Source: Candidatus Methylacidiphilales bacterium
GTDB lineage: Bacteria; Pseudomonadota; Gammaproteobacteria; JASGCS01
Assembly (NCBI GenBank): GCA_030054035.1
Contig: JASGCS010000001.1
Location: 213,515-270,279 of the forward strand
Length of the DNA: 56,765 nt
Direction: 5' to 3'
The notes under the pieces are model-generated. The model saw only the letters and a program-made list of their open reading frames with translations. It was not told the origin of the DNA and searched no databases. The position numbers were made by a program, and so were the translations under genes. This document shows, in pieces, positions 4,645 through 22,605 of this stretch; the first letter of the stretch is position 1, and the number at the start of each line of letters is the position of its first letter.

Positions 4645-5013
4645 TTAAGCTTTTGGAGGCGCGCGAGGGTATACGAGATATGTGAACTTATTTACAGGAA
4701 CGAACACATAATTACTATCATTTAGATAAAAATATTTTGATAGTATAGTACTGTATTGAGGTGATTGAGTGTCGTCTGCAAGCAACGAGCAAGCCATGTC
4801 AAAAGATTCGCAATTATGAAGGATCTCATTGGCATCACTGCGATTTTCATCTTGATAATGGCGAAGTTCTAAAAGAATTTCATTATGTGATATTCCGTGA
4901 TAATTACCAACTATTGGTAACAGAAGTGAAGAAAGGCAGAGCGTTAGATTTAAAATTATTACAAAGTAAAATGGCATATATTTTGAATCATATTGTACCA
5001 TTATGTGCGTCAT
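4645..5013 (-). CDS. Small secreted or membrane-anchored protein, DUF2946-like ending
   Basis: The product is up to 122 residues. A hydrophobic segment (MPFYFVIILNLTLCLSSLLL) starts at residue 13 and looks like a signal peptide or anchor. Two cysteines (HNCESFDMACS) follow, and the C-terminus is YPRAPPKA. A terminal RAPP motif with cysteines is typical of the small DUF2946-type proteins often found next to TonB-dependent metal receptors, but this similarity is weak. Three starts are possible: 5013, 5001 and 4977. The first two overlap the end of the alcohol dehydrogenase gene (stop at 4988); the last leaves a short gap and a clean signal peptide. It lies directly upstream of the receptor gene on the same strand. 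Confidence 0.6.
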   Translation of the reverse strand: MTHIMVQYDSKYMPFYFVIILNLTLCLSSLLLPIVGNYHGISHNEILLELRHYQDENRSDANEILHNCESFDMACSLLADDTQSPQYSTILSKYFYLNDSNYVFVPVNKFTYLVYPRAPPKA

Positions 5014-6145
5014 GTAGAATTTGTTCAGCCAACAATTCGGTAAATGGAATTGGGTTACCAGAAGCAGATGGGTCTTTTGGACTTTTCGTAATGATGAGTT
5101 GGTCTTTACTGCGATCCACGTTGATTTCTTTTAAGGTATGTGGAATTGACAAGGAACTTCTAAAAGTTAGAATCCAATCTAAAAAATTATGCTTACCAGA
5201 TTCACATCCAAGTATTGGGCAAATTTGATCAATCAGTGTTTCTATTGCCGGGTAATTTCTTTTTAGAACATAAGGAAGATACACTGCGTTAGTCAACCCA
5301 TGGTGGGTGTCAAACAACGCTCCAGTTGGATGAGACAATGCATGAATGCCACCAAGTCCTTTTTGAAACGCAGTGCCTCCCATTATAGATCCCATCATCA
5401 TTTGCGCTCTTGCGTCTAGATCGTTTGGATCTTTAAAAACTTTTGGTAGAAACTCTGCTATAGTTCGCATTCCTTCAATTGCAACACCTCTGCTAAGGGG
5501 ATGATAGAATGGCGCACAATACGCTTCAAGACAATGAATAAACGCGTCCATTCCAGTCCATGCAGTAAGGTTACTAGGGAGAGCTTTTGTGAGTTCAGGG
5601 TCTGCTACTACAACTTTAGGCATCATTAAAGGATGAAAGATAATGATTTTGTCTTGGGTATCGGCTTTTGTAACTACAGCCGCACGACCAACTTCCGAAC
5701 CAGTTCCAGATGTAGTTGGAACAGCGATGTTAGGAAGAATAACTGAGCTGTCTGCCCTTGTCCAATAATCACCTATATCTTCAAAATCCCAAATAGGTCT
5801 AGTTTGTTTGTAATAAAAACCTAGTAATTTAGCAATGTCAAGTGCCGATCCCCCGCCAATAGCTATAACACTATCAGGTAATACGGTCTTTATAAAAGAG
5901 ATGCCATCAGTTAAGTTCTGTTCAGTAGGGTTGCCCTTAAAATTAGAAAACACTGCGTTGCCTAGACCTTGCCTTGCTGAAAGCTCTAACATTTCTTGCA
6001 CAACTGGTAGCGTGAGAAGGTAGCTATCAACTACATACAAAGGTTTTTTAAAAGCAAATTCCTTGGCAATAGAAACCAGTTGTTTAAAAACTCCACATTG
6101 CAACCGAATAGCGGTTGGGTATCCGAATTTAGCTTGTAAAGGCAT
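4988..6145 (-). CDS. Iron-containing (group III) alcohol dehydrogenase
   Basis: This 385-residue enzyme belongs to the iron-type alcohol dehydrogenases. The NAD(P)-binding GGGSALDIAK and the signature PTTSGTGSE are present. So are the metal-site stretches GMDAFIHCLEAY and HALSHPTGALFDTHHG, with their Asp and His ligands. It would oxidise an alcohol to an aldehyde in the cytoplasm. It follows an aldehyde dehydrogenase (26-nt gap) and a gamma-glutamyl ligase on the same strand. In the glutamylated-ethanolamine pathway the alcohol dehydrogenase acts on the gamma-glutamylated amino alcohol. That role is an inference from context, and the substrate is not readable from sequence. The gene end overlaps the possible start of the small secreted protein. 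Confidence 0.92.
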   Translation of the reverse strand: MPLQAKFGYPTAIRLQCGVFKQLVSIAKEFAFKKPLYVVDSYLLTLPVVQEMLELSARQGLGNAVFSNFKGNPTEQNLTDGISFIKTVLPDSVIAIGGGSALDIAKLLGFYYKQTRPIWDFEDIGDYWTRADSSVILPNIAVPTTSGTGSEVGRAAVVTKADTQDKIIIFHPLMMPKVVVADPELTKALPSNLTAWTGMDAFIHCLEAYCAPFYHPLSRGVAIEGMRTIAEFLPKVFKDPNDLDARAQMMMGSIMGGTAFQKGLGGIHALSHPTGALFDTHHGLTNAVYLPYVLKRNYPAIETLIDQICPILGCESGKHNFLDWILTFRSSLSIPHTLKEINVDRSKDQLIITKSPKDPSASGNPIPFTELLAEQILHDAHNGTI

Positions 6146-6171
6146 ATGATTTTCCTAAGGTATAAATTTTG

Positions 6172-7557
6172 TTACACCTGATCGCGAATATAAAATGATT
6201 TTGGTCTAGTGAGCAGTTCATACCCAACTCTAGACATAGTGGCGCCCCTTCCGGTATTTTTAATTCCAGTCCATGCTAAAAATGGGTCAAGATAATCACA
6301 GCGATTAACAAAAAATGTTCCAGTATCAACTTGCTTACCTACAGATTCAGCTCTAGCTAAATCTGTAGTCCATAGAGACGCAGTGAGTCCGTAGGGACTA
6401 TCATTCATTAATTGAATTGCTTCCAAATCAGAAGAAACCGACATTATCCCAACCACAGGTCCAAAATTTTCCTCGATCATTAGCTGCATGGAATGATTTA
6501 CATCCACAACTACCTCTACAGGAAGATACGATCCACCGAGGTTATCTTTTTGGTTGATTAGCGTGCTGGCTCCTTTTTGAACAGCCTCTGCAATTTGATC
6601 TTGAACAATTTTTTTCTGATGCACTGAAACAAGTGGGCCCATAACGGTATTAGGATCCATTGGGTTGCCAACGTTCCATTTTTTTGCCTCTTCAACAAAA
6701 CTTTCTACAAATTTTTGGTAGATATTTTTTTCAACATAGATCCGTTCAATTCCACAGCAACATTGACCAGAGTTAAAAAAAGCACCTTCGGCTAAATTCG
6801 ACACAGCGTACTCTAGGTTAGTATCGCTCAAAACATACGCAGGATCTTTGCCACCTAACTCCAAACCGAGAGACGCAAATGTGCCTGCTGAGGCATGCTC
6901 CATAGCCTGCCCTCCTCGCACCGAACCAGTAAAATTTATATGATCAACCGCACCAGATGAAATTATTTTTTCTGTTTGCTGATGAGTGAGTAAGATGTTT
7001 TGGAATACCCCTTCTGGTAATTTTGCCTCTTGAAAAGCCTGAGCAAATCGCTCACCAACTAGCATAGTCTGTAAGGCATGTTTTAAAATTACTACATTAC
7101 CCGCTAGCAATGCAGGAATTATGGTATTCACTGCAGTAAGGTATGGATAATTCCATGGCGCAATGACAAAAACTATGCCTAATGGCTCTCTATGGATATA
7201 TCTAGTTACACCTTGAATTGGATTTGGTGGTAACACATCTTCGAGGTACTGCGGTGCATAGGTAATTGAAAAACGCACCCGTTCCTCAAAACCTCTAAAC
7301 TCTCCTGGACTAAATTTTATTGGTCTGCCCATTTGCCAACTAAGCTCTTCCGCAAACACCATTTTGTGTTTAAGCACGGCATCCAAAAAAGCCAAGCAAT
7401 ACTGTTGTCGCTCTTGGATAGTGGTAGTTTTCCAAACTGAGAATGCTTTACGAGCCTGTGCTAAGACTCGATCAACCTCTGAATCACTTGGATAGTTCCT
7501 AGTTGCATAGACACTTCCATCTACAGGTGTTTTTAATTGTGCTATTTGCTCCGCCAT
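6172..7557 (-). CDS. NAD(P)-dependent aldehyde dehydrogenase
   Basis: The 461-residue product is a complete aldehyde dehydrogenase. It shows the active-site lead-in INFTGSVRGGQ, the general-base Glu in LELGGKDPAY and the catalytic cysteine region NSGQCCCGIERIYVE, where three cysteines are adjacent. PWNYPY marks the cofactor-binding part. It would convert an aldehyde to the acid. Between a PuuA-like ligase (27-nt gap upstream) and an alcohol dehydrogenase, it most likely handles a gamma-glutamylated aldehyde, analogous to PuuC or the ethanolamine pathway. That role is inferred; the substrate specificity of this family cannot be read by eye. Confidence 0.93.
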   Translation of the reverse strand: MAEQIAQLKTPVDGSVYATRNYPSDSEVDRVLAQARKAFSVWKTTTIQERQQYCLAFLDAVLKHKMVFAEELSWQMGRPIKFSPGEFRGFEERVRFSITYAPQYLEDVLPPNPIQGVTRYIHREPLGIVFVIAPWNYPYLTAVNTIIPALLAGNVVILKHALQTMLVGERFAQAFQEAKLPEGVFQNILLTHQQTEKIISSGAVDHINFTGSVRGGQAMEHASAGTFASLGLELGGKDPAYVLSDTNLEYAVSNLAEGAFFNSGQCCCGIERIYVEKNIYQKFVESFVEEAKKWNVGNPMDPNTVMGPLVSVHQKKIVQDQIAEAVQKGASTLINQKDNLGGSYLPVEVVVDVNHSMQLMIEENFGPVVGIMSVSSDLEAIQLMNDSPYGLTASLWTTDLARAESVGKQVDTGTFFVNRCDYLDPFLAWTGIKNTGRGATMSRVGYELLTRPKSFYIRDQV

Positions 7558-7584
7558 TTTATAACTCCATTTTTAAATTAATTT

Positions 7585-8961
7585 TTAATACCTTTCAAAC
7601 CCTCTCCAGAGCTCCCAATCGGTAACCCTTCTGTTCATTTCAAACAATTCCCATTCAGCGGTATGAATATAATGATTGTGGGCAAATGTTCCGATCACCT
7701 CAGGGATAAAAGAAGATTTTTTCATAAGAGTAATTGCGTCAGCTAGCGAAGTGGGGATTTCACTTATATCAGCAGTATTGTAAGCATTACCAGAAAATTC
7801 TTTTCCAAGTGGGAGTTGTTCTTTTACTCCTTTCAGGCCAGCGGCAACAAGCATTGCATAAGCAAGATATGGATTGACATCTGCACCAGGAATCCTACAC
7901 TCAATCCTAACTGAAGATGTGTTAGCACCACAAATTCTAAAACCACTAGTTCGATTGTCGATACTCCATACTGCTTTTGTTGGTGCAAAAGTACCTGCAG
8001 AAAAACGTTTATATGAATTTATATAAGGGGCTAAAAACCAAGTTACTTCTCTAACATATTCCAACATTCCTGCTAAAAATTTACACATAAGATCACTCAT
8101 ACCATGAGGTTTAGAAGGATCGTAGAAGGCGTTTTTTCCACTGGAATCTCGTAGTGATATATGCATATGAGACGAACTTCCCGCTCTTGAATAATGGTAT
8201 TTGGCCATAAAAGTCACAGATCGATCATACATGAGGGCAATCTCTTTTATTGCGTTCTTAACAATGGTGTGGCGATCTGCCATCTCTAACACTTCACAAT
8301 ACTGAATATTAATCTCTTCTTGACCTGGACTCCATTCACCCTTGGAGTTTTCTACAGGAACCCCGGAGCGATGCAGGTGATTTCTGATTGCACGCATTAC
8401 CTCTTCTTCTTTTGAAGTTAAAAAAATACTGTAGTCTTCTGTGTAAGGACCTGCCAGAGGACTGAGATCTTGATATTTATTTTGCGAACATTGTTTATAA
8501 TTCTGCTCAAAAAGAAAAAACTCTAATTCAGATGCGGCCATGACATCGTACCCTAAGGTAATAACGTTAGCGCATTGTTTACTTAAAATAGCTCGGGGAC
8601 TTATTTCAATTGGATGATTGTGGTGATCGGATAAATCACATAGTACCAATGCTGTGGCTGGCAACCAAGTAGCGATTCGTATCGAAGATAATATCGGTTT
8701 TAAAGTAAAATCACCATACCCTTTTTCCCAGCTTGCGTGCTCATAACCAGGTACGGGTTCCATATCAACATCTACAGCTAATAAATAATTACAAGCGTGG
8801 GTTTCAGCGTAAGCAGTTTGACAAAAATACTCAGCGTGAAAACGCTTTCCTGTTAGCCTACCCTGCATATCAGGAAAACAAGCGATTACGGTGTCAATTT
8901 CATTTGCTTGAACCTTTTGTCTCAATTCATCAATAGTGATAATTCCTTGTACTTTTTTCAT
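7585..8961 (-). CDS. Glutamine synthetase-like gamma-glutamyl-amine ligase (PuuA/GlnA4 type)
   Basis: The product is 458 residues and has the glutamine synthetase fold. The N-terminal DMQGRLTGKR and VDVDMEPVPGYE are typical of the PuuA, IpuC and GlnA3/GlnA4 branch rather than of GlnA. The catalytic-domain motifs ASELEFFLFE, GQEEINIQY and SRAGSSSHMHIS and the C-terminal RIECRIPGADVNPYLAYA are intact. These enzymes use ATP to join glutamate to a polyamine, ethanolamine or alkylamine, which protects the aldehyde formed later. An APC permease lies 23 nt upstream, and both an aldehyde and an alcohol dehydrogenase lie downstream. That favours an amino alcohol such as ethanolamine, though polyamines remain possible. 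No PuuD-like gamma-glutamyl hydrolase is seen here. Confidence 0.88.
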   Translation of the reverse strand: MKKVQGIITIDELRQKVQANEIDTVIACFPDMQGRLTGKRFHAEYFCQTAYAETHACNYLLAVDVDMEPVPGYEHASWEKGYGDFTLKPILSSIRIATWLPATALVLCDLSDHHNHPIEISPRAILSKQCANVITLGYDVMAASELEFFLFEQNYKQCSQNKYQDLSPLAGPYTEDYSIFLTSKEEEVMRAIRNHLHRSGVPVENSKGEWSPGQEEINIQYCEVLEMADRHTIVKNAIKEIALMYDRSVTFMAKYHYSRAGSSSHMHISLRDSSGKNAFYDPSKPHGMSDLMCKFLAGMLEYVREVTWFLAPYINSYKRFSAGTFAPTKAVWSIDNRTSGFRICGANTSSVRIECRIPGADVNPYLAYAMLVAAGLKGVKEQLPLGKEFSGNAYNTADISEIPTSLADAITLMKKSSFIPEVIGTFAHNHYIHTAEWELFEMNRRVTDWELWRGFERY

Positions 8962-8984
8962 TTTTTGTTCCCTTATAACTAGAT

Positions 8985-10574
8985 TTATTTTCTTATATAC
9001 AATTTTTCTTCTTCAACTTGTAAAACCATCTCCTCATCACTACTTTTCAAAAGCATTTTCCTTGCAATATAAAAATAGTACAAAGTTGTGCACGCAAAAA
9101 CAATCAAGCCTAATATCACCCCTAATTTAATTGTTTGATTAGGGTCCATCATTGAAATTACTTTTAGTAAATACAAATTACCGGTTAGGGCTTCATTTCC
9201 ATAATATTCTAATAAAAAAAGTGCCGCGAATACCGTTAGCATGCCTATAGTAATAGTCACGCCTAAAGCAGAAGATAATTTACCAAGTGGATTATTGTAA
9301 GTCGGCGTCCGAAATCTATATTGGTGGGAAAGGTGCGAGATAAAAAACACCAGATAGGACACCATTATATAAAAGATTGCAAAATATATAAGTAGTTGAT
9401 TTGCATAAGCGATACCAAATTTAATATATGAAAAGTATAATCTCCATAATACTAATGTTACAACAATTCCAATAAATGTTCCGAAAAGATACGCAAGCCA
9501 TGGATTGTTAAGTGAAGGTTTTAAAAAAGGTAATTTTGATTTAGTGATATTATTCTCACTTTCAGAGTATGAGAAAGGCTCAGAAAGAGCGTATGGTAAA
9601 TAGCCTGACCTACTAAGAAAAAATATAACTTTTCCACTGGCGTAAATAAAACCAATCGCACCAAATGACAGGCCAAACAGAATAAATAGCTTCAAAGTAA
9701 TTGATGGTAAATCTGTGATTTTTAAAAATGCCATTAAAAATGGTTGGGTGACATTTTTTAGTTCTTGCACCCCAACATGTGCAGAAACTATAAAAATAAG
9801 TACCGAGAAGAAAACAAATAGCAAGGCTAACAATATATTACTGGCGGTTATAATATTTACTTCTTTTTTTTGTAAGTCTTCAGTAAAAAAACCAAGCGAC
9901 TCCAAACCAACAAAAAAAATTATTGATATAGGTAAACTAAAAAAAATACCCACGCTCCCATGTGGGAGTAATGGGGTTTCACCAAAATCCGGTATGTCTA
10001 GTAGATTATCATAACTAATACCATTAAACGCTAGCACGGAATACAGCGTTAGCACTACGATTGTTATTACAAAAAAAACAATTACCAATGCTTTTATTAG
10101 ATTGCTTGTAAATATTACACACAAAGTAAAAAGCAGGTAAATAAAAACAAACAAGAACCAATCAGCAATAAGCTCATTTCCTTTTTCATCGAGAGGTAAA
10201 ATGTATTTCAATAAATCAACAACAAGAAGAACATAGGCTGCAGCAAAAGCTATATACGCATAAACTAGAAAATTTCCAACCATGTACATACCAAATTTTC
10301 CAAATACAAGCCTCGGAAGTATAAGCATGCCCCCAGCACTTGGATAGATTGACACTGACTCTTTAAGACAAAGCATCAAGCAATAATATAAAAGCAAGGT
10401 AAGTAACGAAGCGATCAATAACCCACCAAACCCACCAATAGATAAGCCGCTCGTCCAACCAGAATAAAATCCAGATTCAACTAAACAAAAAATATACGCA
10501 ACAATTGTTAATAATGACATAGAGGATGGGACTATCCTCTTTTGAAAAAAATTATTGGGAGTTTCTCTATACAT
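8985..10574 (-). CDS. APC-superfamily amino acid/amine permease
   Basis: The 529-residue product has about 12 membrane-spanning segments. The first has the glycine-rich APC pattern (SGFYSGWTSGLSIGGFGG), and the third region has SAGGMLILPRLVFGKFG. A hydrophilic loop at about residue 330-345 and a charged C-terminal tail after the last span are predicted to be cytoplasmic. As the transporter ahead of a gamma-glutamyl ligase, it probably brings in the amine or amino acid that the ligase uses. The gene starts 26 nt after aacS ends and is followed by the ligase, so the five genes may form one transcript. Confidence 0.88.
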   Translation of the reverse strand: MYRETPNNFFQKRIVPSSMSLLTIVAYIFCLVESGFYSGWTSGLSIGGFGGLLIASLLTLLLYYCLMLCLKESVSIYPSAGGMLILPRLVFGKFGMYMVGNFLVYAYIAFAAAYVLLVVDLLKYILPLDEKGNELIADWFLFVFIYLLFTLCVIFTSNLIKALVIVFFVITIVVLTLYSVLAFNGISYDNLLDIPDFGETPLLPHGSVGIFFSLPISIIFFVGLESLGFFTEDLQKKEVNIITASNILLALLFVFFSVLIFIVSAHVGVQELKNVTQPFLMAFLKITDLPSITLKLFILFGLSFGAIGFIYASGKVIFFLSRSGYLPYALSEPFSYSESENNITKSKLPFLKPSLNNPWLAYLFGTFIGIVVTLVLWRLYFSYIKFGIAYANQLLIYFAIFYIMVSYLVFFISHLSHQYRFRTPTYNNPLGKLSSALGVTITIGMLTVFAALFLLEYYGNEALTGNLYLLKVISMMDPNQTIKLGVILGLIVFACTTLYYFYIARKMLLKSSDEEMVLQVEEEKLYIRK

Positions 10575-10600
10575 TATTGCTTACTATACACCATATTTAA

Positions 10601-12556
10601 CTATTTTTTTACCACACTTTTGAAATACGATAGGCTATCAGGATTCGCTAGCGCATTCAAATTTGGGATTACTTTTGAGTTGAGTGCGCATCGTACAGCT
10701 TCTTCTGAGATTTTACCACTCATGGTTTTTGGAATCGCAGGGACTTCTGCAATGAATCCTGGTACATGGCGAGGAGAGGCCTTAACCCTAATTGATTTTT
10801 TTATACTTTCACGCATTTCATTTGTAAGCACAAGACCTGGCTTTAACACAACAAAGAGAGCTACTATCACATCATCACCCTCTTCAAGTCCTACACATAC
10901 TGACTCAATGATTTCAGGAAACGACTCAAGCACTCTATATATCTCAGAAGTACCAATGCGAACTCCGCCTGGGTTAAGTACCGAGTCACTACGCCCATAA
11001 ATCACAAAACCACCGCGAACTGTCTCTTCAGCAAAATCACCATGGTGCCATACCCCATTAAATCGTTCGAAATAGGATTTATAATACTTAGACCTTTTTA
11101 CATCATCTCCCCAGAAATAAACAGGCATAGAAGGAAAAGAAGAGACGCAAACTAACTCACCTTTTTCACCAACAACTCGCATCGCTGCGTCATTCCACAC
11201 TTCAACAGCCATACCAAGCCCAGCGCCTTGTATTTCACCAGAATAGATTGACTCATATGGATTACCAATTACAAAACAAGAAACAATATCAGTGCCACCT
11301 GACAACGACACTAATGGTTTAGATAACAACCATCGATTAGATACGCCTTCATAATGTTCTGGCAGTAAGGGAGAGCCAGTACTGAGTATTACTCTTAGTG
11401 ACTCAAACCAACTTGCATCAAACTCATCAACTCGTTTCAAGGTTTCACTAATGTACTTTGCGCTAGTGCCAAAACAAGTAACCTGCTCACGAAATAATAA
11501 CTTTAACACCGCATCATCAGTTGGATAAAAAGGAGATCCGTCATTGCATACTATTGTCACCCCTTCGGCAAGCATGGTCACGGTCCAGTTCCACATCATC
11601 CAACCACAAGTTGTTAAATACATCACCGTATCATATAAATTCACATTTAACTGCAATGCATGTTCCTTCCTATGCTGTAATAATGTACCTCCAGCTCCAT
11701 GTACTATACATTTAGGGCGACCAGTAGTTCCACTAGAAAACAAAATATACAATGGATGATTAAACGGATACAGTACCTTTTCACGAAGCGGAACCACTTT
11801 CAACAATGCTTCCTTCAACAAACAACCTACATTACCATGCCTATCAATATCAGAGCCACTACAAACAAAATCGCCATAATCGCAGAGCACAACACGACCA
11901 ATGCTTCCAACAGCGCAGGCAACCTCAACTATCTTTTCACCAATCTCATGGGACTTACCACCATACCGATAACCAACTACAGAAAACAAAATTTTAGGGC
12001 AAACTTGCGATAACCTATCAACCAGCGCCACTGTACCAAACTCTGGGGCACATGAACAAAAGACAGCACCAACTTGCGCAGTTGCCAAAGCAATTGCAAT
12101 GGCATCAATACCATTTGGTAATACTACTGCAACTCTATCACCTGGTACCACCCCATTAGCAACCAACAAACCAGCCAAACGATCCACCAACAATTGTAAA
12201 TCACCATAGCTAATTTCCCTCAGAAACTCACCTTCAGAATATTCAGTCACAGCAATCTTTTCGCCAACATCACGCAACACTTCATGACGAAACGACAACA
12301 TCACATCAGGGTACCAAACATCGCTAAACATATCACCCCCACGCAACAGCGAAACTCCACGACGATCAGCACTTACCCCACAATACTCCCACACTAAATC
12401 CCAGAATAACTCACGAGACTCAACACTGAAACGATGCAAAGATGCATAATCATCAAAACTCCGACCAGTCCTCTCTGACAACAAAGACGCAAACTCAAAT
12501 AAACGACTTTGAGACTTCTCAAAGTCAGAACGGTAATAATAAGGAAATTCTTGCAC
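10601..12556 (-). CDS. aacS: Acetoacetyl-CoA synthetase
   Basis: The 651-residue product is an AMP-forming acyl-CoA ligase whose length and overall pattern fit acetoacetyl-CoA synthetase. Motif A3 reads FSSGTTGRPKC, GWMMWNW and GGTDIVSCF line the substrate site, and the C-terminal catalytic lysine is in IPKTMSGKISE. It would activate acetoacetate to acetoacetyl-CoA, releasing AMP and PPi. The start is GTG; an in-frame stop lies shortly upstream and no ATG precedes the homologous region. TATAAT ends 6 nt before the GTG, which suggests a leaderless mRNA. Its coding strand is unusually G- and T-rich compared with most genes in the window. Co-transcription with the permease (26-nt gap) is likely. 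Confidence 0.93.
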   Translation of the reverse strand: MQEFPYYYRSDFEKSQSRLFEFASLLSERTGRSFDDYASLHRFSVESRELFWDLVWEYCGVSADRRGVSLLRGGDMFSDVWYPDVMLSFRHEVLRDVGEKIAVTEYSEGEFLREISYGDLQLLVDRLAGLLVANGVVPGDRVAVVLPNGIDAIAIALATAQVGAVFCSCAPEFGTVALVDRLSQVCPKILFSVVGYRYGGKSHEIGEKIVEVACAVGSIGRVVLCDYGDFVCSGSDIDRHGNVGCLLKEALLKVVPLREKVLYPFNHPLYILFSSGTTGRPKCIVHGAGGTLLQHRKEHALQLNVNLYDTVMYLTTCGWMMWNWTVTMLAEGVTIVCNDGSPFYPTDDAVLKLLFREQVTCFGTSAKYISETLKRVDEFDASWFESLRVILSTGSPLLPEHYEGVSNRWLLSKPLVSLSGGTDIVSCFVIGNPYESIYSGEIQGAGLGMAVEVWNDAAMRVVGEKGELVCVSSFPSMPVYFWGDDVKRSKYYKSYFERFNGVWHHGDFAEETVRGGFVIYGRSDSVLNPGGVRIGTSEIYRVLESFPEIIESVCVGLEEGDDVIVALFVVLKPGLVLTNEMRESIKKSIRVKASPRHVPGFIAEVPAIPKTMSGKISEEAVRCALNSKVIPNLNALANPDSLSYFKSVVKK

Positions 12557-16655: not shown

Positions 16656-17282
16656 CTACCGCATATCATAGAGTTCAAGGTTTTTTGTGTGGGGGGGTAA
16701 AAACAAATCTTTTGGTAACATTTTATTTGTAACAATAGAGATGAAGTTTATCGCATGCTCACCACCTATACTATCTTTCCACGCTATCTGTTTTGGAAAT
16801 TCATTGAGATTAAATGTAACCAGCAATGACTCAAAAAGAGTTTCACTAGACGCAGGTATTAAAGTGAATTGTGCGTGCCCTTGATTGTCTTTATGATACG
16901 TTATTTTAGAAAATAATGACTGAAGTTTTTTTTGCGATACTGATTTTTGAGTTAAAATTGAAGTTGGGCCTAGATTCTCTTCGTTGATATTTTTTATAGT
17001 GAGATGGCCAAGAACTTTATCATAGATATAAAGTGCGTTATCGTAACTGAAAATGCTCATTTCATAAGGATAGGTATATTCCCATTTAAACTGGTCTGGA
17101 GAAACAAAATAAAATACCCCTCTTTGGATTTCTGACTGTGTATTATTGGTTTGCTGGGTAAATTGTGTTTGAAGTTTCGGAGTGTTGGAAAATTTGGTCA
17201 GTAATCGTACAAACTCGTCGATTGGTTCAGCGAATACAGTTGCAGTAAACATGCAACATATAATAATTAATTTGCGCATCAC
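16656..17282 (-). CDS. lolA: Outer-membrane lipoprotein carrier protein LolA
   Basis: The 208-residue product has a signal peptide (MMRKLIIICCMFTATVFA). It also has the LolA pattern of QTQFTQQ, then RGVFYFVSPDQFKWEYTYPYE and a Tyr-rich strand (LYIYDKVLGHLTIK). It ferries lipoproteins from LolCDE across the periplasm to LolB. The start overlaps the ftsK stop by 4 nt (ATGA), so translation is coupled. The ftsK-lolA order is conserved in proteobacteria. Confidence 0.95.
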   Translation of the reverse strand: MMRKLIIICCMFTATVFAEPIDEFVRLLTKFSNTPKLQTQFTQQTNNTQSEIQRGVFYFVSPDQFKWEYTYPYEMSIFSYDNALYIYDKVLGHLTIKNINEENLGPTSILTQKSVSQKKLQSLFSKITYHKDNQGHAQFTLIPASSETLFESLLVTFNLNEFPKQIAWKDSIGGEHAINFISIVTNKMLPKDLFLPPHTKNLELYDMR

Positions 17283-19552
17283 TCTGGTCCAATATACTCT
17301 CGTTTACCGTTTGATGAAAGTGGGGTTACTAATCCTTGTTTCTCCATTATATCAATCAATCTAGCCGCATGGTTATATCCTAATCGCAATCTTCGTTGTA
17401 GATATGAGACCGATACTCGTTTAGTTGTTTTAACAATTTCTAATGCCTCTTGATAATGGGCTTCTCCAAAATTTTCTGTCGAACCGGATGGTTGCTGGTC
17501 TCCTCCTTCTTCTGTCGATGGTAATACAACTTCGTAAGACATAGCCCCGCCTGTTAATTCCCGTAAGTAACCAACCACCGCCTCAACATCATTTTCACTC
17601 ACATATGGACCATGGATCCGTTCAGGTATTAAGTTTGCAGAACGCATAAAAAGCATATCGCCTTTTCCAAGTAGCTGTTCGGCTCCTCCTTGCTCAAGTA
17701 TAGTTCTTGAGTCTAACTTAGAAGAGACTTGAAATGCAATTCTTGATGGTATATTTGATTTGATCAACCCAGTAATAACATCCACAGTTGGTCTTTGTGT
17801 GGCTAAGATTAGATGGATGCCGCAAGCGCGAGCTTTTTGCGCTAAGCTAACAATATAACTTTCGGCTTTTTTTCCAACTTGATGCATCATATCAGCAAAC
17901 TCATCAATCACAAGCACGATATATGGTAGTGGCTCTTCGTCGCTCGAATTTTCTAGCGGACTTTCTTTTAATTTACTATTGTAACTTTTTATACTCTTAA
18001 CTTTATATAGTTCCATTTTTTTGTACCGTGATTCCATTTCCATTACGCACCAGCGCAGTGCAGAGAGCACTTGACCAGTATCTGTAATTACTGGGGTAAG
18101 TAAATGAGGTATCCCGTCGTACATACCCAACTCAATTCTTTTGGGATCAACTAGAATTAAGCGTAACTCACTCGAGGATCGCTTAAAAAGCATAGACAGC
18201 AACATACCATTTATCCCTACTGATTTTCCCGATCCTGTGGTTCCAGCAACTAATAGATGGGGCATTTCAGCTAAATCAGAAACCACTGGATTTCCACTAA
18301 TATCTTTACCTAACGCTAAAGGTAACAATGCATTACTATTTTGGTAACATTCCGATGCAAGAAGTTCAGACAAATAAACCGATTGTCTAGTAGGATTGGG
18401 TACTTCTAGTCCAATTACAGATTTTCCAGGAATAACTTCTAAAACACGGATACTTGAAACCGATAGTGAGCGGGCTAAATCTCGTTCTAAGCCTGTGATC
18501 TTACTTGCCTTAATGCCAGCACCTAAGTCTAATTCAAATAGAGTGATGACTGGGCCAGATTTTAAAGCCACAACAGTCGCTTCTACACCAAATTCTTTTA
18601 GTTTCATTTCAACCAACCGTGAAAATTTTTCAAGCATAACTTGATTTTGTTGCACTTTAATATTATCTCCACCATGAATCAATGTTATTGGCGGGACTAA
18701 GAACTTTGGTTTTTCTTGATCCGTCGCCATAAAGCTTTTCTCTAAGACTAATGTTTTTTGTATTGGTATGGATTGAGCTTGAGGGGTGGCAGGTTGATTG
18801 ATTGATTGCGGATGTGATTGTTCGGTATTTGGAATTGGGGCTGGCTCAGGTTCAACATAAGTAAATGGCTCACGAAATGTTTGAGTCTCAGGGTAATCAT
18901 TAGGAATTGTTTGTTTTTGATATCGTTGAAGTAATATTGTATATAAACGAATTAGGTGATGCCCGACAAAATACGTAAGTTTTGAAAATGACATGGCACT
19001 ATATAACATAGCTGAGGTTATCGCCAGAAAGTAGAGTAGCGCAGTTGCGCCGAGTTCATTAAACATTGCTATACTAACCTTGGCGACAAAAAGACCCACT
19101 ACTCCACCACTTTCATTTGGCAGATAGTCGGGCATAGTTTTTACATGCATCGCCGCAAGCGCACTTAGACAAAAAATTGTTATTGCGCCAGTGGCAAGTT
19201 GAAACCATAGCGATTTTGCAAAAGTTAGGTCGTATTTCTGTTCAACGCGACTTAGATATTCTTTTTGCAATCCACCTCGTAATTTACCCACCCCGATCAA
19301 TCCAAACAAAATCACCCAGCCCCAGGCAAAAAAACCAAAAGAGAAGTAAAGCGCGTGAGACAGGGATGCTCCGATTTTGCCAAAAACATTGCTAACTGAT
19401 CTTTCCCCGGTTGTGGTAAGCCAGTTTGAATCGCAAGGAGAGAACGAAAATAGGCTAATTGCTAATACTATCACCATTCCAAGTATGCCTATAGCTACAA
19501 TTTCATTTATAACTGTTCTAATAGTCTGTTCTTCAAAATTATTATTTTGCAT
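17279..19552 (-). CDS. ftsK: DNA translocase FtsK
   Basis: The 757-residue product has four to five N-terminal membrane spans (about 20-190), a short Pro/Gln-rich linker (about 215-265) and the motor domain. Walker A is GTTGSGKSVG, Walker B lies in PYIVLVIDEFADM, and LATQRPTVDVITGLIKSNIP is the typical sensor region. The C-terminal winged-helix gamma domain (about 690-757, ALEIVKTTKRVSVSYLQRR) recognises KOPS-like DNA. It moves chromosome ends at the division septum. The linker is short compared with E. coli FtsK, as in most bacteria. The gene is transcribed divergently from the Pfp-Adk fusion 65 nt away. Confidence 0.97.
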   Translation of the reverse strand: MQNNNFEEQTIRTVINEIVAIGILGMVIVLAISLFSFSPCDSNWLTTTGERSVSNVFGKIGASLSHALYFSFGFFAWGWVILFGLIGVGKLRGGLQKEYLSRVEQKYDLTFAKSLWFQLATGAITIFCLSALAAMHVKTMPDYLPNESGGVVGLFVAKVSIAMFNELGATALLYFLAITSAMLYSAMSFSKLTYFVGHHLIRLYTILLQRYQKQTIPNDYPETQTFREPFTYVEPEPAPIPNTEQSHPQSINQPATPQAQSIPIQKTLVLEKSFMATDQEKPKFLVPPITLIHGGDNIKVQQNQVMLEKFSRLVEMKLKEFGVEATVVALKSGPVITLFELDLGAGIKASKITGLERDLARSLSVSSIRVLEVIPGKSVIGLEVPNPTRQSVYLSELLASECYQNSNALLPLALGKDISGNPVVSDLAEMPHLLVAGTTGSGKSVGINGMLLSMLFKRSSSELRLILVDPKRIELGMYDGIPHLLTPVITDTGQVLSALRWCVMEMESRYKKMELYKVKSIKSYNSKLKESPLENSSDEEPLPYIVLVIDEFADMMHQVGKKAESYIVSLAQKARACGIHLILATQRPTVDVITGLIKSNIPSRIAFQVSSKLDSRTILEQGGAEQLLGKGDMLFMRSANLIPERIHGPYVSENDVEAVVGYLRELTGGAMSYEVVLPSTEEGGDQQPSGSTENFGEAHYQEALEIVKTTKRVSVSYLQRRLRLGYNHAARLIDIMEKQGLVTPLSSNGKREYIGPE

Positions 19553-19617: not shown

Positions 19618-21522
19618 ATGAAAAAAAACTTATTTTATGCCCAATCTGGAGGAGTAACATCTGTAATTAACGCAACTGCAGAAGCAGTTATCCTTCAAGC
19701 CCGTAAAGAAAAAAACATTGCGTCAATTTACTGTGGGCAATATGGTATTTTAGGTGCGCTTGACGAACAACTCGTCGATGTTACAAAAACACCAGAAAAG
19801 GTCATTAAAAGACTCAGCAATAACCCTGGGGGGGTATTTGGCTCATGCCGATTTAAATTAATAGACCCAAGTAAAAATGAAAAGTCTTTTGATCGATTGC
19901 TCACAGTTTTTGATGCTCATAATATTGGGTATTTTCTTTATAACGGTGGCGGAGATAGCGCGGATACAAGTTTTAAAATTGAGCAGGCTGCTAAGTTAAG
20001 AAACTATCCGTTGAAGGTGGGGCATATTCCAAAAACTATTGATAACGATTTACCATTTACTGATTGTTCACCTGGGTTCGCATCAGTTGCAAAATACATT
20101 GCAGTAAGCACACAAGAAACTTCACTAGATCTAGCATCAATGCATAAAAGCTCAACTAAGGTTTTTATTCTTGAAGTCATGGGTAGAAACGCTGGTTGGA
20201 TTGCTGCAAGTGCTGGATTGGCGCAAACCAAACAACTTAATGTCCCATTACTAATTCTATTTCCTGAAATACCATTCAATCAAAGTTCTTTTCTCAACGC
20301 AGTATCAGAAAAAATTAAAGAATTTGGATATGTATCTGTAGTGGTATCTGAAGGGGTACGCGACGATCAAGGAAAATTCGTAAGCACGCATTTATCAAAG
20401 GATGCGTTTGGTCATCATCAGCTTGGTGGAGCAGGTAACTTTATTGAACAATTAATTGAAAGTAAATTGCACCTTAAATGCCACACCGCTATTGCTGATT
20501 ACCTGCAAAGATCAGCCAGGCATGTTGCCTCAAATATTGATTTGATCCATGCAAAAGCACTAGGTCAAGAGGCTGTCCGTATGGTTTGCCAAGGAATTTC
20601 TGGAAAAATGCCAATTATCGTCAGAAAAAGTAATACTCCATACCGTTGGGGCGTTAGCAGTGTACACCTATCCAAAATTGCTAATCAAGAAAAAAAGATG
20701 CCTCTTACATTTATATCTAGCGATGGGTTTACTATCACCAATCAATGCAGAAAATACTTGAGCCCTTTGATACAAGGAGAGGCTTTTAGTCATTTTAAAG
20801 ATGGCGTCGGTGATTATCAACAATTTTTATTTCCTAAAGTTAAGAAAAAATTAATCCGAAATCGTGGCTATAAAATATTACTGCTTGGACCTCCTGGTGC
20901 TGGTAAAGGAACACAGGGAGATCTGCTTTGTCAAACCTTAAAGATAGTTAAGGTTTCATGCGGTGATATTCTAAGAAAAGAATCACGAAGTGGCAGTGAA
21001 TTAGGAAAAAACTTAAGTGCGATTATGGCATCAGGAGCGCTGGTACCAGACTCTCTTATTATTGAAATTATGAACAAAGAGCTAAAACAAAAGCAGTATG
21101 ATGATGGGTATCTTCTTGACGGTTTTCCTAGGACTGTCGGACAGGCACAAGCACTCCATAGCACTGTCTGTGTGTTAGACGCAGTGATTGAAATTAATAT
21201 AAGTGACGCAACGCTTCATAGCAGACTAGAAGGAAGATGGATTCACTCACCTTCAGGAAGAACATACCACACAACCTTTAATCCACCAAAAATACCCTTT
21301 ACTGATGATATTACAGGTGAGCCACTCTCCCAACGGGTAGATGACACACCAGAGACAATTAAAAAAAGATTAGAAGTATATTATCAGGAAACTCAACCAC
21401 TCTCAAAATATTACAAATCTTTATGTAAAGATCATGGAACTAAATATTTAGTCATAAATGGCGATCAATCTATTAATCAGATACTAAAAAAAATAACTAC
21501 TTTTCTTATTGAGAAATTATAA
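19618..21522 (+). CDS. Fused PPi-type 6-phosphofructokinase and adenylate kinase
   Basis: One uninterrupted 634-residue frame encodes two enzymes. Residues 1 to about 405 are a phosphofructokinase. GGGDS (110-114) has Asp where ATP enzymes have Gly, and PKTIDND (138-144) has Lys where they have Gly; both changes are marks of pyrophosphate-dependent enzymes. MGRNAGW (188-194) binds fructose-6-phosphate. Residues 419-634 are a full-length adenylate kinase with P-loop GPPGAGKGT (424-432), DGFPRT (501-506), a LID segment (GRWIHSPSGRTYH) and QRVDDTPETIKKRL. The linker is only about 12 residues (VKKKLIRNRG). The first part would phosphorylate fructose-6-phosphate reversibly with PPi, and the second would interconvert AMP, ADP and ATP. 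It may be the only adk of the genome, which cannot be checked here. Confidence 0.93.
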   Translation: MKKNLFYAQSGGVTSVINATAEAVILQARKEKNIASIYCGQYGILGALDEQLVDVTKTPEKVIKRLSNNPGGVFGSCRFKLIDPSKNEKSFDRLLTVFDAHNIGYFLYNGGGDSADTSFKIEQAAKLRNYPLKVGHIPKTIDNDLPFTDCSPGFASVAKYIAVSTQETSLDLASMHKSSTKVFILEVMGRNAGWIAASAGLAQTKQLNVPLLILFPEIPFNQSSFLNAVSEKIKEFGYVSVVVSEGVRDDQGKFVSTHLSKDAFGHHQLGGAGNFIEQLIESKLHLKCHTAIADYLQRSARHVASNIDLIHAKALGQEAVRMVCQGISGKMPIIVRKSNTPYRWGVSSVHLSKIANQEKKMPLTFISSDGFTITNQCRKYLSPLIQGEAFSHFKDGVGDYQQFLFPKVKKKLIRNRGYKILLLGPPGAGKGTQGDLLCQTLKIVKVSCGDILRKESRSGSELGKNLSAIMASGALVPDSLIIEIMNKELKQKQYDDGYLLDGFPRTVGQAQALHSTVCVLDAVIEINISDATLHSRLEGRWIHSPSGRTYHTTFNPPKIPFTDDITGEPLSQRVDDTPETIKKRLEVYYQETQPLSKYYKSLCKDHGTKYLVINGDQSINQILKKITTFLIEKL

Positions 21523-21534
21523 ATTATTGGGCAG

Positions 21535-22605
21535 TCAAAATCTTGAGACTATCTGATGATACTCAGGCTCTACCACTGCAATACGATTTTTATAGTCATA
21601 TTGATCGATTATGGCAGTGTCTTTTAAGCCATTTCCAGTTAATGTGCAGACTACTGTTGCGCCCTTTTTTATCACGCCTCGTTTATATGATTCAATAACG
21701 CCTGCTATACTGATCGCAGAAGCTGGTTCACAAAAAATCCCTTCAGATTCTGAAAGATATTTTAAGGCTGCAATTAGCTCTTGGTCTGTTTGAGATCCAA
21801 ACCATCCATTTGATTGAGAGACAGCGTCTTTTGCCAATTGCCAAGACTGTGGATTTCCAATTCTAATTGCAGTTGCGATAGTTTCAGGGCTTTCAACAAT
21901 AGCTCCATGAATAAATGGAGCTGCTCCGCTAGCCTGGTAACCAACCATACGAGGTAAACTGTCTGATAAACCGATTTGTTTAGCTTGAACATACCCTTTC
22001 CAGTAAGCTGAAATATTGCCGGCGTTACCGACAGGAAGCACATGGTATTCTGGTGCTCGGCCCAATGAAGTAGTGATTTCAAAAGAAGCGGTTTTTTGAC
22101 CTTCGAGACGCATAGGGTTAACAGAGTTTACTAATGCAATATCATCTCGTTCACTTGAAATTTCCTTAACGAGCTGCATTCCTTGATCAAAGTTACCTTT
22201 TATTTGAATGATAGTTGCCCCATACATAATGGCTTGCGCTAATTTCCCAGATGCAATTTTACCCTCAGGTATGAGCACTACACATGCCAACCCAGCTCTT
22301 GCTGCGTAGGCTGCTGCTGCTGCTGAAGTATTGCCAGTAGATGCACAGAGAAGAGTTTTGGCGCCGTTATGCAACGCTTCTGTAACTGCAACGGCCATGC
22401 CTCGGTCCTTGAATGAGCCTGTTGGATTTAGACCTTCAAATTTTACATATAACTCAAGGTCGAGTTCGTGCTTTTGACAAAACTGTTCAAGGTGGATTAA
22501 TGGGGTGTTACCCTCTCCAAGCCCGATAGCTTTTGCTTGAGGAGGCAGTCCAAGGTATTCCCGCCACCGTATAACTACACCATCTTGAGGAATTTCAATT
22601 CTCAT
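21535..22605 (-). CDS. thrC: Threonine synthase
   Basis: The 356-residue product is a fold-type II PLP enzyme of the short threonine synthase class. The PLP lysine is in NPTGSFKDRGM, the phosphate-binding loop is in ASTGNTSAAAAAYAARAG, and GEGNTPL lies near the start. It makes threonine from O-phosphohomoserine. The start overlaps the hom stop by 4 nt, so hom-thrC is one transcriptional and translational unit. The stop lies 12 nt from that of the convergent Pfp-Adk gene. Confidence 0.96.
   Translation of the reverse strand: MRIEIPQDGVVIRWREYLGLPPQAKAIGLGEGNTPLIHLEQFCQKHELDLELYVKFEGLNPTGSFKDRGMAVAVTEALHNGAKTLLCASTGNTSAAAAAYAARAGLACVVLIPEGKIASGKLAQAIMYGATIIQIKGNFDQGMQLVKEISSERDDIALVNSVNPMRLEGQKTASFEITTSLGRAPEYHVLPVGNAGNISAYWKGYVQAKQIGLSDSLPRMVGYQASGAAPFIHGAIVESPETIATAIRIGNPQSWQLAKDAVSQSNGWFGSQTDQELIAALKYLSESEGIFCEPASAISIAGVIESYKRGVIKKGATVVCTLTGNGLKDTAIIDQYDYKNRIAVVEPEYHQIVSRF

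Follow-up and report, generated by a model that had tools for sequence, protein, structure and literature searches.

An open reading frame in the genome of Candidatus Methylacidiphilales bacterium appears to join a phosphofructokinase to an adenylate kinase (ADK), which raises the questions of whether the joint is real, whether the cell has other copies of either enzyme, and in which direction of sugar metabolism such a protein would work. The frame lies in a window of 56,765 nucleotides, the whole stretch of DNA that was analyzed. An earlier note on this DNA had described a pyrophosphate (PPi)-dependent phosphofructokinase (PFP) fused to a complete ADK and had proposed that the protein salvages both products of AMP-forming ligases, with PPi driving glycolysis and AMP returning to the adenylate pool. 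Here, we examine both the structure of the fusion and this proposal.

One open reading frame with two complete enzymes

The features of the locus are listed in Table 1. The gene is divergent from ftsK and convergent with thrC, and thus apparently forms its own transcription unit. The fusion itself was confirmed: both enzymes are complete in one frame. The ORF contains no stop and domain models cover both halves, in agreement with the single continuous frame for a phosphofructokinase and a full-length Adk described earlier. The Pfam models PFK, ADK, and ADK_lid all match the protein. The NF010675 model (diphosphate--fructose-6-phosphate 1-phosphotransferase) matches residues 1-412 with 550.9 bits, about twice its cut-off of 273, and TIGR01351 matches with 221.7 bits against a cut-off of 168, the ADK models spanning residues 419-630. 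Stand-alone PFPs also end with the KKL motif and a few further residues, which leaves a linker of about six residues (413-418) in the fusion. The joint is therefore only about half as long as the 12 or so residues originally estimated.

Table 1. Coordinates of the pfp-adk gene, its parts, and its neighbors in the window.
Feature	Position	Strand	Remarks
pfp-adk fusion gene	19618..21522	+	ATG start, 634 aa, no internal stops
ftsK, divergent neighbor of pfp-adk	17279-19552	-	
thrC, convergent neighbor of pfp-adk	21535-22605	-	
PFP half, residues 1-412	19618..20853	+	NF010675; complete relative to stand-alone PFPs
Codon of the PPi-type Asp113 in GGGDS (Gly104 in E. coli PfkA)	19954..19956	+	
Codon of the PPi-type Lys139 in PKTIDND (Gly124 in E. 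coli PfkA)	20032..20034	+	
Linker IRNRGY, residues 413-418	20854..20871	+	No start codon in the ADK frame
ADK half, residues 419-634	20872..21519	+	Only the initiator Met missing; TIGR01351
ADK P-loop GPPGAGKGT, residues 424-432	20887..20913	+	
Cys448, AMP site, usual residue Thr (E. coli Thr31)	20959..20961	+	From alignment
ADK LID domain, residues 540-575	21235..21342	+	PF05191, 1.5e-13

The best PDB matches of the PFP half were 3hno and 3k2q, and its identity to the best gammaproteobacterial family members was about 53-57%. The fusion retains 126 of the 136 columns that are near-invariant in stand-alone PFPs. The alignment confirmed the active-site residues that had been singled out as PPi-type, namely Asp113 at the position of E. 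coli PfkA Gly104 and Lys139 at that of Gly124. Equivalents of PfkA Arg72, Asp127, Asp129, and Arg171 are kept, and the position of PfkA Asp103 is occupied by Gly112, as it is in the family relatives compared. From these residues, the PFP half is predicted to use PPi. A PFP of the same family, with 52% identity, was also seen on contig L033, which is titled as a Klebsiella pneumoniae MAG; the title looks doubtful.

The ADK half is 43% identical to the 214-residue E. coli Adk over 212 residues, and the closest solved structures are bacterial adenylate kinases. It retains the P-loop as well as Arg453, Asp501, Arg505, Gln509, Arg536, Arg540, Arg573, and Arg584. The sole unusual residue is Cys448, which may affect the nucleotide choice of this half: among 51 compared ADKs, 44 have Thr at this position and no other has Cys. 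The cut-off of the strict equivalog model NF001379 was missed (241.9 vs 268 bits), which would be in keeping with a divergent member. As the catalytic residues are intact by alignment and Cys448 is the lone oddity of the ADK half, the view that both parts keep their key motifs holds, and both halves look catalytically intact. When the structure of the joined protein was predicted, the PFP half was modeled reasonably; the ADK half, for which there were no aligned relatives, mostly had pLDDT values below 50, and due to this low confidence we make no claim on contacts between the domains.

Integrity of the fusion and copy number

The fusion comes from one draft genome that is the sole representative of its order among the genomes searched, and a sequencing or assembly artefact fusing two genes had to be considered. 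In the ADK frame, no ATG, GTG, or TTG occurs between residue 384 and a point beyond the P-loop; where an ADK usually has its Met, the codon is TAT. Splitting the fusion would consequently take several errors and not a single lost stop, and a lost stop between the halves was ruled out as the source. In addition, the GC content and the third-position GC are alike in the two halves, no repeats were found at the junction, and the junction lies well within a contig of 476 kb. The junction codons, the composition, and the lack of repeats argue against the sequencing error that had been named as a possible refutation, and we regard an artefact as highly improbable.

The genome amounts to 1.72 Mb in 16 contigs and is 96% complete. 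PF00406 and PF00365 each gave one match in it, both within the pfp-adk ORF, and this profile search revealed no second gene of the adk or pfk family, so the separate copies that the earlier note had asked about were not found. As there is neither a separate ADK start nor another adk or pfk gene, the fusion should supply both activities. The adk gene is essential.

Occurrence and origin of the fusion

We surveyed the relatives, the class, and the phylum of the host. Among the 747 Pseudomonadota genomes of this survey, which was not exhaustive and hardly touched other phyla, no other match spanned both halves. In other genomes, the top PFP matches end near residue 412-454 of the fusion, and a full fusion would have outscored such matches. 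Thus, the search of these genomes for the same fusion came back empty, whereas separate pfp and adk genes lying next to each other turned out to be recurrent. At no fewer than 31 of 61 pfp loci (L004-L064), an ADK-like gene is located near upstream on the opposite strand, i.e., head-to-head (for example, L006 3434-3997 and L045 673-53); the count is a lower bound because the flanks are short at many loci. Most of these ADK-like neighbors form a group apart from the housekeeping ADK. Some of the ORFs reach about 400 aa, and several of the genomes also carry a housekeeping adk. Tandem pairs on the same strand, adk followed by pfp at a distance of about 60-470 bp, were present in three genomes (G322, G569, and G620; loci L194, L198, and G620:C1:1685071-1686995). 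The genomic link between pfp and ADK-type genes is thus recurrent outside the fusion, and the functional tie behind it is putative.

In the phylogenetic tree, the fused ADK groups with the housekeeping ADKs with a support of 99. Its derivation from a pfp-adjacent ADK-like gene was rejected, since a topology constrained to place it with that type is rejected (p-AU 0.007), although the fused branch is long. The simple loss of a stop codon between tandem genes was also rejected as the origin, as adk precedes pfp in the tandem pairs encountered and follows it in the fusion. The branch lengths were 2.01 for the PFP half (median 0.16) and 1.83 for the ADK half (median 0.42), and with such long branches the tree placements of both halves are approximate. 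A scan of viral contigs found no relatives of the ADK half.

These results bear on a serious rival to any functional benefit, namely that adjacent adk and pfp genes were joined by chance and kept their separate roles. The occurrence in 1 genome of 747 would fit such an event, and so would the fast evolution of both halves and the ordinary housekeeping type of the fused ADK, which is unlike the usual pfp-adjacent type. On the other hand, the fusion preserves the only copy of an essential enzyme, whose residues are intact, and pfp is repeatedly adjacent to ADK-type genes elsewhere. We consider a chance fusion quite possible, at somewhat less than even chances. The confidence placed in it overlaps with that placed in the biosynthetic role proposed below, since a fusion that arose by chance could still have a gluconeogenic role.

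Metabolic gene content

The genome contigs were searched with E. coli proteins (tblastn) and Pfam models, the tblastn negatives being weaker than the model negatives. The pyruvate kinase model PF00224 had zero matches in the genome and matched in 14 of 14 controls. Neither FBPase I nor FBPase II was found in the genome, nor was transaldolase. By tblastn, the genome gave no match for zwf, eda, E. coli-type glk, pfkB, ATP-type PEP carboxykinase, ppk, or malate synthase A, and PTS enzyme I and HPr were absent, the enzyme I query matching the PEP synthase gene alone. Two weak SuhB-like proteins (24-29% identity) are encoded, which might have FBPase activity. Coupling of PFP to a membrane pyrophosphatase was ruled out, as PF03030 had no match in the genome; a motif scan, run without a positive control, was also empty.

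The genes found include a PEP synthase exceeding both equivalog cut-offs, a soluble pyrophosphatase, a PRPP synthetase, a class II aldolase (TIGR01521), and tkt, gap, pgk, eno, pgi, tpi, rpe, rpiA, glmS, and glpK. The genome covers the reversible steps between enolase and FBP. The genome also has two acetyl-CoA synthetase genes (acs), PDH, TCA enzymes, a ppc-like gene, and the malic enzyme gene maeB. The window carries genes for AacS, a TRAP transporter, aconitase, and fumarase, and the genes near pfp-adk point to the use of organic acids and amines. A run on one strand of the window (4988-12556) comprises an iron alcohol dehydrogenase, an aldehyde dehydrogenase, a glutamine-synthetase-like protein, an amino acid permease, and acetoacetyl-CoA synthetase, and could be an amine utilization set. 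Elsewhere, tkt, gap, and pgk form a run at L111:4641-9921 that is convergent to fba and includes no pyruvate kinase gene; the ORF immediately before fba (L111:15-4640) encodes 1541 residues, is rich in Ser, Thr, and Asn, and resembles a large surface protein. A tandem pair of AMP-forming acetyl-CoA synthetase genes is located at L101:11930-15800. A missing gene could reside in the unassembled 4% or so of the genome, but gaps are unlikely to be the whole explanation because several unrelated genes are absent at once.

Proposed role in sugar and pentose synthesis

With no FBPase and no ATP-dependent phosphofructokinase found, PFP is the sole candidate for the interconversion of F6P and FBP, and as the sugar-burning enzymes are absent, the fusion most likely serves the synthesis of sugars and nucleotide precursors and not glycolysis. 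We find it probable that the fusion is the only adenylate kinase and the only recognized F6P/FBP enzyme of the cell, with a PFP that is mainly biosynthetic and replaces FBPase and SBPase. The fusion, its residues, and the single copy of each enzyme in the assembly are observed; that both halves are active, that PFP uses PPi, in which direction it runs, and whether the joint brings a benefit are inferences.

The PFP half would convert FBP and Pi to F6P and PPi, and SBP and Pi to S7P and PPi, thereby standing in for the absent FBPase and SBPase, and for transaldolase in pentose synthesis. The soluble pyrophosphatase would clear PPi and pull PFP toward F6P and S7P. The reactions of PEP synthase and PRPP synthetase yield AMP. 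The ADK half would turn AMP and ATP into two ADP, the AMP stemming from PEP synthase at the gluconeogenic entry, from PRPP synthetase in the use of pentose, and from AMP-forming ligases. As G6P dehydrogenase and transaldolase are both missing, ribose-5-phosphate should be made via transketolase and SBP, with PFP needed for the step from SBP to S7P; the aldolase, transketolase, and PFP that make up the remainder of the gene pattern of this route are all present.

Previous work on related enzymes is in line with this role. Csal1534, a PFP of the same kind by annotation, rescues an E. coli fbp mutant and not a pfkA pfkB mutant; it performs the FBPase job in Chromohalobacter and fails as a PFK in vivo (PMC6692947). 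As expected for the host of an FBPase-replacing PFP of the Csal1534 type, the genome analyzed here lacks FBPase I and II, with the weak SuhB-like proteins remaining. Replacement of FBPase and SBPase by PFP has been proposed for ammonia oxidizers and symbionts (PMC5960693, PMC4287430), and the SBP route has been argued to replace transaldolase in clostridia that lack it (PMC7029132). The Methylococcus PFP also uses sedoheptulose phosphates, according to a citation in PMC6288188. Counted against our explanation are the two weak SuhB-like proteins, the reversibility of the PFP reaction, the long branches of both halves, the odd Cys448 of the ADK, and the low confidence of the predicted joined structure.

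The opposite direction would have PPi from biosynthesis drive glycolysis via PFP while ADK returns AMP to the pool. The PPi-type residues of the PFP half, the AMP-forming ligases of the window and the genome, and the presence of glpK are consistent with such a flux, and pyruvate could be reached by reverse PEP synthase or by PEP carboxylase, malate dehydrogenase, and malic enzyme, a malate bypass made possible by the ppc-like and maeB genes. However, pyruvate kinase, E. coli-type glucokinase, and PTS are all absent, in addition to G6P dehydrogenase, FBPase I and II, and transaldolase; the soluble pyrophosphatase competes for PPi, and Csal1534 is unable to act as a PFK in vivo. With no FBPase, biosynthesis depends on PFP whatever else the enzyme does. 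The presence of PEP synthase together with a soluble pyrophosphatase further disfavors glycolytic use of PPi, which PFP would instead make. We therefore consider the glycolytic explanation improbable. The ligases releasing AMP and PPi do occur in the window and the genome, and the return of AMP by ADK remains sensible; it is the use of PPi in glycolysis that finds no favor. PEP synthase and PRPP synthetase would be at least as relevant sources of AMP as the ligases named in the earlier note. Our proposal thus reverses the flux of that note and agrees with it in bringing PPi and AMP chemistry together in the fusion.

Significance of joining the two enzymes

The two halves share no substrate, so substrate channelling is not expected, and the benefit of joining them, if any, would be regulation, stability, or a fixed ratio. 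A selected coupling device, in which the sole ADK sits on the sole enzyme dephosphorylating FBP and SBP and ties the adenylate balance, with PEP synthase and PRPP synthetase supplying the AMP, to F6P and pentose flux, seems rather unlikely; here, for example, adenylate bound to one half would affect the other half.

Within the biosynthetic role that we favor, the fusion unites an adenylate-balancing enzyme with a gluconeogenic control point in a cell that has apparently lost pyruvate kinase and FBPase. With it, one could directly test why genes for PFP and of the ADK type associate in Gammaproteobacteria, and it bears on PFP as the primary enzyme of a cell at the F6P/FBP step in both directions, a role listed in a 2025 review as undetermined for any organism (PMC12203962). 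No report of a PFP-ADK fusion was found in the open-access papers searched. PFP and ADK are known enzymes, and their pairing in one protein is new within the papers and the 747 genomes searched.

Comparison with known systems

The fusion fits the same model as the PPi-dependent phosphofructokinases of the PRK14072/NF010675 family (3hno, 3k2q, and the gammaproteobacterial members) and has the same PPi-type residues. The members encountered are stand-alone proteins, whereas the present one has a C-terminal ADK. The Methylococcus capsulatus enzyme and Csal1534 are grouped with this family by the literature only. The hosts Chromohalobacter and N. multiformis are reported to lack FBPase, as does the host of the fusion.

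With the canonical bacterial adenylate kinase (TIGR01351; E. coli Adk), the fusion shares the full domain, the LID, the catalytic arginines, and the P-loop. It differs in that the ADK has no start of its own, is joined at its N-terminus, has Cys at the position of Thr31, and falls below the NF001379 cut-off. In Gammaproteobacteria, separate genes for enzymes of these two kinds also lie near each other, but in most of these pairs the genes are head-to-head and the ADK belongs to a different group, and in others they are tandem with adk before pfp. A natural ADK fusion with a 10-residue linker is known in the HGPRT/adenylate kinase of Zobellia galactanivorans (PMC7326950). There too, an ADK is joined by a short linker to a metabolic enzyme; the partner is a purine phosphoribosyltransferase in Zobellia and PFP in the protein described here.
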